This document shows positions 5,491-24,331 of a DNA stretch of 31,954 nt, piece after piece. Within the stretch, counting starts at the first letter, position 1; each line of letters starts with the position of its first letter. Both the position numbers and the translations under genes were made by a program. Below the pieces are notes generated by a model, which was not told where the DNA came from, ran no database searches, and saw only the letters and a list, made by a program, of their open reading frames with translations. Source of the DNA: a virus; IMG/VR virus record IMGVR_UViG_3300034107_000661, positions 1 through 31,954 of that record. One strand, given 5' to 3'.

Positions 5491-5696
5491 GTGCCGTCCC
5501 CCTTTGGAACCGTAAAACAGTGGCCCAGCACAACGCCCATTCCTACGGCAAAGCCTAGGGATCGCTGATTGACTTCCCAGATTGCCTCGCTCCAGGTTGT
5601 GCCGCCTGACTGCCATTTGTAAAGGTCAACCAACAGCAGCACGATGGCTGCGGTGATTAACGCGATGAAATTTGTGGCAGCAGTCCTGAATTTCAT
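5487..5696 (-). CDS. Small two-span membrane protein, holin-like
   Basis: The protein is 69 aa. ATG 5696 was chosen for its ATGA overlap with the PEP-CTERM protein stop; the longer frame upstream lies inside that gene. Hydrophobic segments are at about residues 9-25 (NFIALITAAIVLLLVDL) and 45-60 (SLGFAVGMGVVLGHCF), joined by a short loop WQSGGTTWSEAIWEVN. The build matches small phage membrane proteins such as holins. It is third in a set of small membrane proteins in this block. Nothing distinguishes holin from antiholin or superinfection-exclusion protein. Confidence 0.55.
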   Translation of the reverse strand: MKFRTAATNFIALITAAIVLLLVDLYKWQSGGTTWSEAIWEVNQRSLGFAVGMGVVLGHCFTVPKGDGT

Positions 5697-6211
5697 TTCA
5701 CGCACCTTATGAGGATCGCCAAAGCTGACAGTATGCCAAGCAACCACGTACGAGGCTCTGGAACGGTGTTTCCAGTGATTTGGAGTGACAAGCCGGTTGC
5801 GTTCTGCGCCCACGCAATTGGGTTATCTGCCGAAATACCAAGGTAGTAAGTCGAGTTCGGGACCATCGGGATATCGAGGTGGAAAAATGGGATATTAGAG
5901 AACCCGATCAGGCTCACTTGGTCGGATGGAGTGTATTCCAATCGCATCTCGGTCATCCACCAGTCCACAGGCTTTTGCAGCAAGGGATCGTAAAATGACA
6001 GGTACAACGATCCAGTGAAACCGGCTGGCTTGTAGATATTGAGCCTGTAATCCCACAGTTCAGTGGAATCGCCAGAATTGAATGCCTGATATATCCACTG
6101 GTCTTTGCCTGTGTAGACAAGCCCCGTGATCGGCTCAGATAGGTTATCGAACAGGATCTCTGAACCTTGTGTTGGCAGTCCCAGAAATAACAGGAGCAGT
6201 AACTTTTTCAT
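5693..6211 (-). CDS. Secreted PEP-CTERM sorting-domain protein
   Basis: The protein is 172 aa. ATG 6211 starts a clear signal peptide (MKKLLLLLFLGLPTQGSE) and overlaps the preceding stop (ATGA). Residues about 20-145 are beta-rich with many Tyr/Trp and Gly and resemble secreted PEP-CTERM proteins with a jelly-roll-like body (inference). The C-terminus, from residue 150, is VPEPRTWLLGILSALAILIR followed by CVK: a VPEP motif, a hydrophobic span and a basic end. This is the canonical PEP-CTERM signal recognised by exosortase of Gram-negative envelope systems. The phage carries no exosortase in this window, so it would rely on a host enzyme. A surface role such as superinfection exclusion or adhesion is inference. 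Confidence 0.88.
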   Translation of the reverse strand: MKKLLLLLFLGLPTQGSEILFDNLSEPITGLVYTGKDQWIYQAFNSGDSTELWDYRLNIYKPAGFTGSLYLSFYDPLLQKPVDWWMTEMRLEYTPSDQVSLIGFSNIPFFHLDIPMVPNSTYYLGISADNPIAWAQNATGLSLQITGNTVPEPRTWLLGILSALAILIRCVK

Positions 6212-6762
6212 AGTGTCCCGTTTGCATTTGAAGGTGGTGCCCACAACACGGGCATTTCGGCGGCGAATTGGGCGGGTGTTGGGACGGCCCGTAACCCCGC
6301 CAGCACGTCTGATTCGATCTTGTACGCAACTTCGTAGCACTGCTGACGAAACGACTTAGCGGCAACCCCGTCAGCGGCCCATTGAGGCACCGGACTGTCA
6401 AACCATGTGATGGCCGATGAAATGGAGTCGAAGTCGCGTGGTGCAACCTGGGCGTCCATGTGCTGGTCTAAGAGTTGTTTGAGGATCGCTTTTTGTGACC
6501 TTAAATAAGCCATTTGCTCATCAGGTGTCAGCGTGACCACAGTCCATGTTTCGGTAACTTTCGATCCTACCAGTTTCAACGTCTGAAGCAGTCGAGTTGT
6601 CGCTGGATTGATTGTCGGCTTGACCGAAGGCGTGAACGGATAGAACCCGTATTGCGCGAGGATGTCAGCGTCCAGCGTGTGAAAGTTGCTCACGTTGGCG
6701 AAGGTCGTTGGCAACACTTGAGGTGATCCGATTTGACCGTTTTTGACTTGGCAGAATTGCAT
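6208..6762 (-). CDS. Tail-fibre-associated protein
   Basis: The protein is 184 aa. The N-terminus (QFCQVKNGQIGSPQVLPTTFANVSNFHTL) and the segment PSVKPTINPATTRLLQTL resemble short tail-fibre proteins that describe their own fields. The C-terminal part, LDQHMDAQVAPRDFDSISSAITWFDSPVPQWAADG, matches the helical module found near the end of many tail-fibre and fibre-assembly proteins, where a DxxAxxRxYDS pattern is followed by a Trp-rich helix. It ends in an ATGA overlap with the PEP-CTERM gene and follows the LamG adhesin. I infer a tail tip or fibre role; no exact family is assigned. Confidence 0.6.
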   Translation of the reverse strand: MQFCQVKNGQIGSPQVLPTTFANVSNFHTLDADILAQYGFYPFTPSVKPTINPATTRLLQTLKLVGSKVTETWTVVTLTPDEQMAYLRSQKAILKQLLDQHMDAQVAPRDFDSISSAITWFDSPVPQWAADGVAAKSFRQQCYEVAYKIESDVLAGLRAVPTPAQFAAEMPVLWAPPSNANGTL

Positions 6763-17135: not shown

Positions 17136-17540
17136 TCAGGGGATTGTCGATAGTAGTCTGTCCCTCACGTCTAGTTCGAGTGTGTCTACAGCGTCTGGGT
17201 CGTTCAGGACCGCGTCCTCACCGTATCTCGCAATCGCAGCTGCGTCATATGCCGCCGCCGCTTCTTTGGCCGTGTAGTAGCCGTACCGATGATTCCCGTT
17301 GCCGATATGGACGCCAAACGATCGGTGCGACCTGCAATAACTGATGCCAATCGTCCCGCCGCTCCTGATCTTGTGCTGCTGGTGATGTTCAACGATCGTC
17401 CCTAGCCGCCTGATCAGTTCGCCGCTGCTTGGCACCTCTTTATCAAGGTCGCGATCGCCTGGAAAGTTGCTGTCAGGGTTCTCGCTTTTGTACTGGCGGA
17501 CGATCGCGATACGTTGGTTTGTCAGGGCGGCGAGGGTCAT
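17136..17540 (-). CDS. AP2-domain DNA-binding protein
   Basis: The protein is 134 aa. Residues about 62-112 form an AP2/ERF-like domain: GISYCRSHRSFGVHIGNGNHRYGYYTAKEAAAAYDAAAIARYGEDAVLN, ending in the usual EAAxAYDxAA helix and GxxAxLN. In phages this domain is usually the DNA-binding part of an HNH homing endonuclease. Here the nuclease part seems absent; the N-terminal half is helical with several His but no HNH motif. It may be a free-standing regulator or a remnant of an intron-type endonuclease. It starts in an ATGA overlap with csrA. Confidence 0.88.
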   Translation of the reverse strand: MTLAALTNQRIAIVRQYKSENPDSNFPGDRDLDKEVPSSGELIRRLGTIVEHHQQHKIRSGGTIGISYCRSHRSFGVHIGNGNHRYGYYTAKEAAAAYDAAAIARYGEDAVLNDPDAVDTLELDVRDRLLSTIP

Positions 17541-17734
17541 GATGTTTTCCCTGTTTCAACTGCATTCATCATCTTTTTCGCCCACACAATCCGCCGATCA
17601 ATCACAACCGACTGCGGAGCGGTGAAACCCAGCTTGACCGCACCGTGATGTGATTCCGTCACCGTCAGAACGGTTTCGATTCCGTTCACCGAAATCACGA
17701 TCTCTTCGCCGATTTTGCACTTTAGAACTAGCAT
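17537..17734 (-). CDS. csrA: CsrA-family RNA-binding regulator
   Basis: The protein is 65 aa, the usual CsrA length. It starts MLVLKCKIGEEIVISVNGIE, matching the conserved MLIL.RK.GE.I.I pattern; then VTVTES-like strand, GAVKLGFTAPQSVVIDRRIVW, equivalent to VRIGI.AP..V.V.R.E. The RNA-contact residues near the N-terminus and the R near position 47 are conserved in kind, although position 6 (Arg in many) is Cys-Lys here. ATG 17734 has a very strong SD GGAGG 9 nt upstream, itself containing GGA, and a GC-rich hairpin in the leader. It likely controls translation of phage or host mRNAs. A CsrA homologue on a phage is uncommon. Confidence 0.92.
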   Translation of the reverse strand: MLVLKCKIGEEIVISVNGIETVLTVTESHHGAVKLGFTAPQSVVIDRRIVWAKKMMNAVETGKTS

Positions 17735-17763
17735 CTGCTGCAACCTCCATGTTGTGAGTGAGT

Positions 17764-17788
17764 GCCGGGGGTGTATGAATCCCCCGGC
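17764..17788 (-). promoter_or_regulatory. csrA leader hairpin
   Basis: GCCGGGGG and CCCCCGGC pair perfectly (8 bp) around a 9-nt loop ATTCATACA (minus strand). A GGA lies at the loop edge (GGGGGATTC). The hairpin is about 30 nt before the csrA start codon and upstream of the GGAGG SD, an arrangement known for CsrA self-regulation. Confidence 0.6.
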
Positions 17789-17910
17789 GCGAGTGTGATT
17801 GGTCAACTCCCCTTTAGCCCAAGTGATCTTGCCCGGCTGGAGCCGGAGAAACAGGATCGGAATCAACTAATCAGGAGTCAGTCAGCACTGGTTATCGGCC
17901 AGCCTGACAA

Positions 17911-17971
17911 GCCGCCGGTGGGAATCGAACCCACCCGGGGGAATACGTCCCCCTTGAGCCACTGACGGCGG
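17911..17971 (-). ncRNA. tRNA-like element lacking a D-arm
   Basis: On the minus strand CCGCCG pairs with CGGCGG (6-bp acceptor-like). Inside are a 5-bp GGGGG/CCCCC hairpin with loop ACGTATT and a true T-arm pattern, GTGGG TTCGATT CCCAC. Only 12 nt (TCAGTGGCTCAA) stand where a D-arm of about 17 nt should be, and position 33 would be C, so this is not a normal tRNA. It may be a tRNA remnant, a tRNA mimic or part of a larger RNA together with the structure at 17986-18071. The encoded CCA is absent. Confidence 0.5.
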
Positions 17972-17985
17972 ATACAGCCCCGCTT

Positions 17986-18071
17986 GGTAATCGCTCAGGT
18001 CCCAGCCCCGATCGCTCTTGCCCCTCTCATGAAGGGGCGGGTGGTAAGGATTCCACCGAGCCACAATTACC
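17986..18071 (-). ncRNA. Multibranched structured RNA candidate, 86 nt
   Basis: Read on the minus strand, GGTAATTG at 18071-18064 pairs with CGATTACC at 17993-17986 (8 bp, one wobble). Inside: GCTC/GAGC closes two hairpins, GGTGG/CCACC (loop 8) and GCCCCT/AGGGGC (loop TCATGAG), and a third hairpin TCGGG/CCTGA has loop GCTGGGA. Every stem was checked by base pairing. It sits between csrA and the next gene, with no protein-coding signal. Its GGA loop could bind CsrA; that is inference. Known RNA families were not recognised. Confidence 0.5.
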
Positions 18072-18120
18072 ACCGCCTAGAGATGAAATCGGAGCAGATA
18101 GCGGCTTACGGGTGCTGATC

Positions 18121-24247: not shown

Positions 24248-24289
24248 CTCCGGAGCAAAAGGTCGCATGTTCGAATCATGCCGGGTGTA
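24248..24289 (+). other. attP core matching the 3' half of tRNA-Arg(CCG)
   Basis: The 42 nt read as anticodon loop CTCCGGA (anticodon CCG), 3' anticodon stem GCAAA, variable loop AGGTC, T-arm GCATG TTCGAAT CATGC, acceptor CGGGTGT and discriminator A. The 5' half of the tRNA is missing, and the preceding CAGAA does not pair with GCAAA, so identity seems to begin in the anticodon loop, a usual crossover point for tyrosine integrases. It lies about 105 nt before the integrase gene. Confidence 0.85.
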
Positions 24290-24331
24290 TTGCGGTAAGT
24301 CTTTAGGATTAAGGCTTTTAAGACAAGACGT

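Follow-up and report, generated by a model that had tools for sequence, protein, structure and literature searches.

A conserved structured RNA leader with a tRNA-like element precedes csrA in a clade of phages

Introduction

Structures that resemble tRNAs serve as processing or regulatory signals, as in mascRNA, the viral TLS and the thrS operator. The RNA-binding regulator CsrA is titrated by sponge RNAs such as CsrB, CsrC and RsmZ, which are rich in GGA motifs in hairpin loops (CsrB has 22 GGAs), and selected CsrA ligands present GGA in a loop, mostly with four or fewer contiguous base pairs (PMC7652899). The csrA gene is itself autoregulated in E. coli, with a leader in which GGA overlaps the Shine–Dalgarno (SD) sequence (PMC7652899). 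Alleles of csrA also occur on phages and plasmids, in the case of phages in 30 of 2517 genomes (PMC7366521).

Here we analyse the region upstream of csrA in a virus record of 31,954 nt (IMG/VR IMGVR_UViG_3300034107_000661), the whole of which is referred to as the window. Like CsrB, CsrC and RsmZ, its leader is a hairpin-rich non-coding RNA linked to CsrA; in contrast to these, it is depleted of GGA, its GGAs are not in loops and are mostly unconserved, and it is sited in the leader of csrA itself. As in mascRNA, the viral TLS and the thrS operator, one of its modules (element B) combines a T-arm with an acceptor-like stem in a non-tRNA transcript, but this module is intercistronic in a phage, has no D-stem and finds no Rfam match at gathering level. 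It shares with the E. coli csrA leader a GGA over the SD sequence, whereas the phage structure is much longer, conserved and equipped with tRNA-like and branched modules. Finally, csrA is phage-borne here as in the alleles reported before, yet a conserved structured leader of phage csrA was not described in the literature located in a limited, open-access search.

Results

The csrA gene of the window lies between two genes on the same strand:

17537-17734, minus strand: csrA, 65 aa, starting MLVLKCKIGEEIVISVNG, family PF02599
18121-18471, minus strand: upstream gene
17136-17540, minus strand: gene after csrA, overlapping the csrA stop codon

Its product matches PF02599 in two profile searches (E 2.2e-10 and 1.5e-11; 40.8 bits against a cut-off of 27, residues 1-52) and contains, within IDRR, the equivalent of Arg44, a residue whose role in RNA binding by E. 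coli CsrA is established. The upstream gene was found only on contigs that carry the leader described below. The product of the gene after csrA looks AP2-domain-like by eye (FGVHIGNGNHRYGYYTAKEAAAAYDAAA), and a Pfam search with it gave no match. Other neighbours encode an Enc34-type ssDNA-binding protein, a D5-type primase, an N6/N4 methylase and structural proteins.

Elsewhere in the window, a papain-family protease (PF00112; 2415-3212, minus strand) and a staphylococcal-nuclease homologue (PF00565; 4739-5278, minus strand) are encoded amid phage genes, and 5693-6340 (minus strand) encodes a predicted secreted protein with a PEP-CTERM-like motif at its end (VPEPRTWLLG...), which is unusual for a phage and a possible clue to the host. 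A stretch resembling a tRNA 3' end (24265-24290, cgcatgttcgaatcatgccg) lies about 80 nt ahead of the integrase gene and is a possible attachment site; no tRNA was detected there.

Between the stop codon of the upstream gene and csrA lie about 385 nt without a conserved open reading frame, so that the roughly 390 nt of non-coding DNA (17735-18120) claimed from the sequence alone are a real intergenic stretch. A 109-aa in-frame extension of csrA into this region was rejected because indels among relatives disrupt the frame. From its 5' to its 3' end, the leader contains the following features:

17979-18080 (approximate, ~100 nt), minus strand: element A, branched, with a long basal stem, hairpin CGGTGGAATCCTTACCACC and hairpin GCCCC..GGGGC
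17911-17971, minus strand: element B, tRNA-like, with an acceptor-like stem, a variable anticodon-like hairpin and a T-arm, and no D-stem
17881-17908, minus strand: hairpin C, GTCAG...CTGAC, inner stem variable
17825-17858, minus strand: stem-loop D, outer stem GATCCTG/CAAGATC around a GC hairpin
17764-17788, minus strand: hairpin E, GCCGGGGG-ATTCATACA-CCCCCGGC, 8 bp
17744-17748, minus strand: SD sequence, GGAGG inside ATGGAGG

Relatives were collected from IMG/VR contigs with two DNA patterns, one for the T-arm region and one for hairpin E, each of which found 17 contigs in nearly identical sets; a search with the CsrA protein found 11 loci, with relatives at 54-97% identity. Downstream of the T-arm pattern, 14 of the 17 contigs carry a csrA of the same clade and two (L018 and L020) a divergent one; the remaining contig, L029, ends before this point. 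Wherever a contig reaches far enough, csrA is present without exception. Two covariance models likewise gave a single strong copy in each phage, always before csrA, and neither pattern nor covariance-model searches turned up a B–E leader apart from this gene.

The two phages with a divergent csrA are otherwise largely unrelated to the window. When 20 window genes were compared with L018, matches were limited to the integrase (80%) and a single small gene; the CsrA of L018, encoded behind a RecT gene, is only 29% identical to that of the window while still belonging to PF02599 (E 1e-14). Despite this divergence, the B–E leaders of L018 and L020 retain 75-76% identity, a pattern that we read, from sequence comparison, as a mobile leader–csrA cassette. 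Five remote csrA loci (L053-L057) lack the T-loop motif and were negative with both covariance models. Among cultured phages, no relatives were found for either the leader or CsrA; type-2 CsrA had no relative among 50,697 phage records, a scan of 84,980 genomes for prophages or hosts (pattern plus primase) gave no match, and no known Rfam family matched the window at gathering level.

The leader of the window folds better than its shuffled versions (z -2.8), and alignment of relatives supports the individual helices. In 16 aligned B–E leaders, 98.0% of helix cells are paired, and cells with changes on both sides number 50, compared with 18.7 in shuffles, none of which (0/500) reaches the covariation score; when the partner strand is slid, pairing falls to 36-55%. 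Element A (11 distinct rows) has 99.4% of its helix cells paired, with 33 double-change cells against 12.2 in shuffles, 10 pairs with double changes and again 0/500 shuffles reaching the score; across both tests, slid versions are 31-55% paired. These cell counts do not represent independent events, as helix alleles are few and have been shuffled by recombination, but distinct compensations are visible nevertheless: in the T-stem (GGTGGG, CGTTGG, GGCAGG), in stem D (GATCCTG, GACCTTG, GAAGTTG, GAGTTTG) and in the basal stem of A (GGTAATTG with CGATTACC; TCGGTCG with CGACCGA). The outer stem of D shows strong covariation, hairpin GCCCC..GGGGC of element A covaries, and one pair of hairpin E changes from G-C to U-A in 4/16 leaders. 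The conserved pairings for which the sequence-only reading had proposed to search in related phages are therefore present, and the alignments show that the helices evolve by compensatory change, that the leader is truly folded with modules A–E as listed above, and that the B–E core precedes csrA wherever it is found on a long enough contig.

Element A is optional, being absent from three relatives of the same clade and from L018 and L020, and its covariance model found no strong copy outside the leader in the phages of this clade. Three further matches to its 19-nt core (L035-L037) have none of the surrounding structure and were judged to be chance hits. Hairpin CGGTGGAATCCTTACCACC (18058-18040, minus strand) is invariant in 13/13 copies of A while the neighbouring stems vary, which suggests a sequence-specific partner; its core also served as a search pattern, and loci found through csrA show the hairpin too.

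The tRNA-like T-arm noticed in the window is present at 17935-17917, within element B. Its loop, GGTTCGATTCC, is invariant, which is partly built in because the fixed 11-nt loop was in the search pattern; it is also seen, wherever leader sequence was included, at the 11 loci that the CsrA protein search had identified. The T-stem, with its three main allelic versions, is fully paired in 16/16 leaders and three of its pairs change on both sides, and the acceptor stem is 97.9% paired. Two registers fit the acceptor stem, which in single-sequence folding of the full leader is often outcompeted and is favoured mainly when B is folded alone. Rfam scores stay below threshold (tRNA-Sec 23.4 bits against 47; mascRNA 18.2 bits). 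ARAGORN called 3/16 leaders in mitochondrial mode, compared with 0/1600 shuffles, and 0/16 in its standard bacterial mode; given the latter result, the absent D-stem and the variable anticodon-like loop, a real tRNA gene was rejected. The anticodon-like loop varies in both length and sequence, which makes decoding an unlikely function.

Discussion

Our best reading of this locus is that csrA of these uncultured phages has a structured cis-leader, new and specific to their small clade, which appears to represent an undescribed conserved RNA family. That the ~385 nt before csrA form a conserved structured RNA acting in cis on the csrA transcript, with element B as a processing site, is in our view an evenly balanced proposition. 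Element B would mimic a tRNA at the junction of two cistrons on the same transcript, where a tRNA-binding factor of the host, RNase P being the likeliest, would recognize it and cut; this cut would separate the csrA mRNA from the upstream message and leave it with a folded 5' end, hairpins C–E would then set stability or ribosome access, and CsrA may repress its own translation via the GGA of the SD sequence, which is invariant.

In phages without element A, the start of element B lies 13-15 nt beyond the stop codon of the preceding cistron. It is thus probably an intercistronic processing signal, with RNase P as the candidate enzyme, and the little room left makes a promoter of its own unlikely; a consensus scan of the window saw neither a promoter nor a terminator on this strand. 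RNase P needs the acceptor/T-arm stack, whereas the D-loop appears dispensable (PMC4919913). Since the enzyme binds this stack and appears to tolerate D-loop loss, cleavage at B is the leading proposal, as one among several possible uses of a tRNA mimic. Against it stand the missing 3' CCA of element B, the two possible registers of its acceptor stem and the frequent loss of this stem to competing folds in single full leaders.

An important question is whether the leader could instead be explained by CsrA autorepression, i.e. by a structure that offers the CsrA dimer the SD GGA together with another, weaker site. The sequence-only reading had correctly noted an SD sequence with GGA (17748-17744), and an ANGGA (ATGGA, AAGGA or ACGGA) is kept there, and only there, in 16/16 leaders; a second GGA about 65 nt upstream, in the stretch AGGGGAGTT, is kept in 14/16, and the E. 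coli precedent mentioned above points in the same direction. However, SD sequences tend to contain GGA in any case, L018 and L020 have lost the second site, and neither the tRNA-like element nor element A is explained in this way, so that we regard autorepression as an unlikely account of the leader. Even less probable is an independent small RNA that acts in trans and only happens to lie beside csrA: A and B are indeed self-contained conserved folds, and A comes and goes as a unit, but the strict association of B–E with csrA and the missing promoter and terminator signals argue against it.

It had also been suggested from the sequence alone that regulator and potential decoy would be encoded in one transcript, with the GGA hairpins of the leader titrating the CsrA encoded downstream. 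The first half of this idea stands, in that a structured RNA is indeed encoded together with csrA; the second, though the window leader has five GGAs besides that of the SD sequence and both GGAs of element A are kept in 13/13 leaders that contain A, we consider very improbable. GGA is depleted rather than enriched: leaders contain 1-6 GGAs where dinucleotide shuffles predict 4.3-9.6 (6 against 9.6 in the window), below expectation in 18/18 cases, with ANGGA near expectation (1-2). Nor do these GGAs occupy conserved hairpin loops. The GC hairpin that had been described as exposing GGA at its loop exists (17788-17764, hairpin E), but its stem of 8 bp takes up both Gs and leaves only the A unpaired, and GGC replaces GGA in 14/16 leaders, leaving GGA in 2/16; in the tRNA-like element GGA is kept in 4/16. 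Similarly, the branched RNA that had been put at 86 nt was confirmed (at about 18080-17979), whereas its supposed loop GGA sits at a stem end (GGTGG-AATCCTTA-CCACC). Moreover, the leader stems are long GC helices unlike selected CsrA ligands (PMC7652899), element A can be absent altogether, and leader variants do not follow CsrA type. Because GGA is depleted, mostly unconserved and not placed in the loops of weak hairpins as in known CsrA ligands, the decoy reading is unsupported; a CsrA sponge cannot be recognized from GGA motifs alone.

Least credible of all is that we are looking at a tRNA gene in decay, at what is left of an attachment site or at a signal that works at the DNA level, for example an origin: the T-arm has a perfect tRNA T-loop, and phages often carry tRNA 3' ends at their attachment sites, but the T-stem changes in sequence with its pairing kept in 16/16 leaders, a pattern that fits neither decay nor a sequence identical to a single host site, a D-stem and a fixed anticodon are missing, standard ARAGORN finds no tRNA, and the integrase gene is 6.5 kb away.

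Overall, we infer that the leader is more likely to control processing or translation of the csrA message than to soak up CsrA. A more far-reaching version of the cis-leader reading would have a phage RNA family subvert a tRNA-processing enzyme of the host, by means of a tRNA mimic that lacks the D-arm and is joined to csrA, so as to cut the phage operon and time the making of the phage's own CsrA; it must be regarded as rather doubtful. What the comparison has brought to light is a leader with compensating helices that travels with csrA into an otherwise largely unrelated phage and places a tRNA mimic in the leader of a phage mRNA. If its tRNA-like part is an RNase P site, phages would be mimicking tRNA as a means of dividing an operon and controlling a post-transcriptional regulator.
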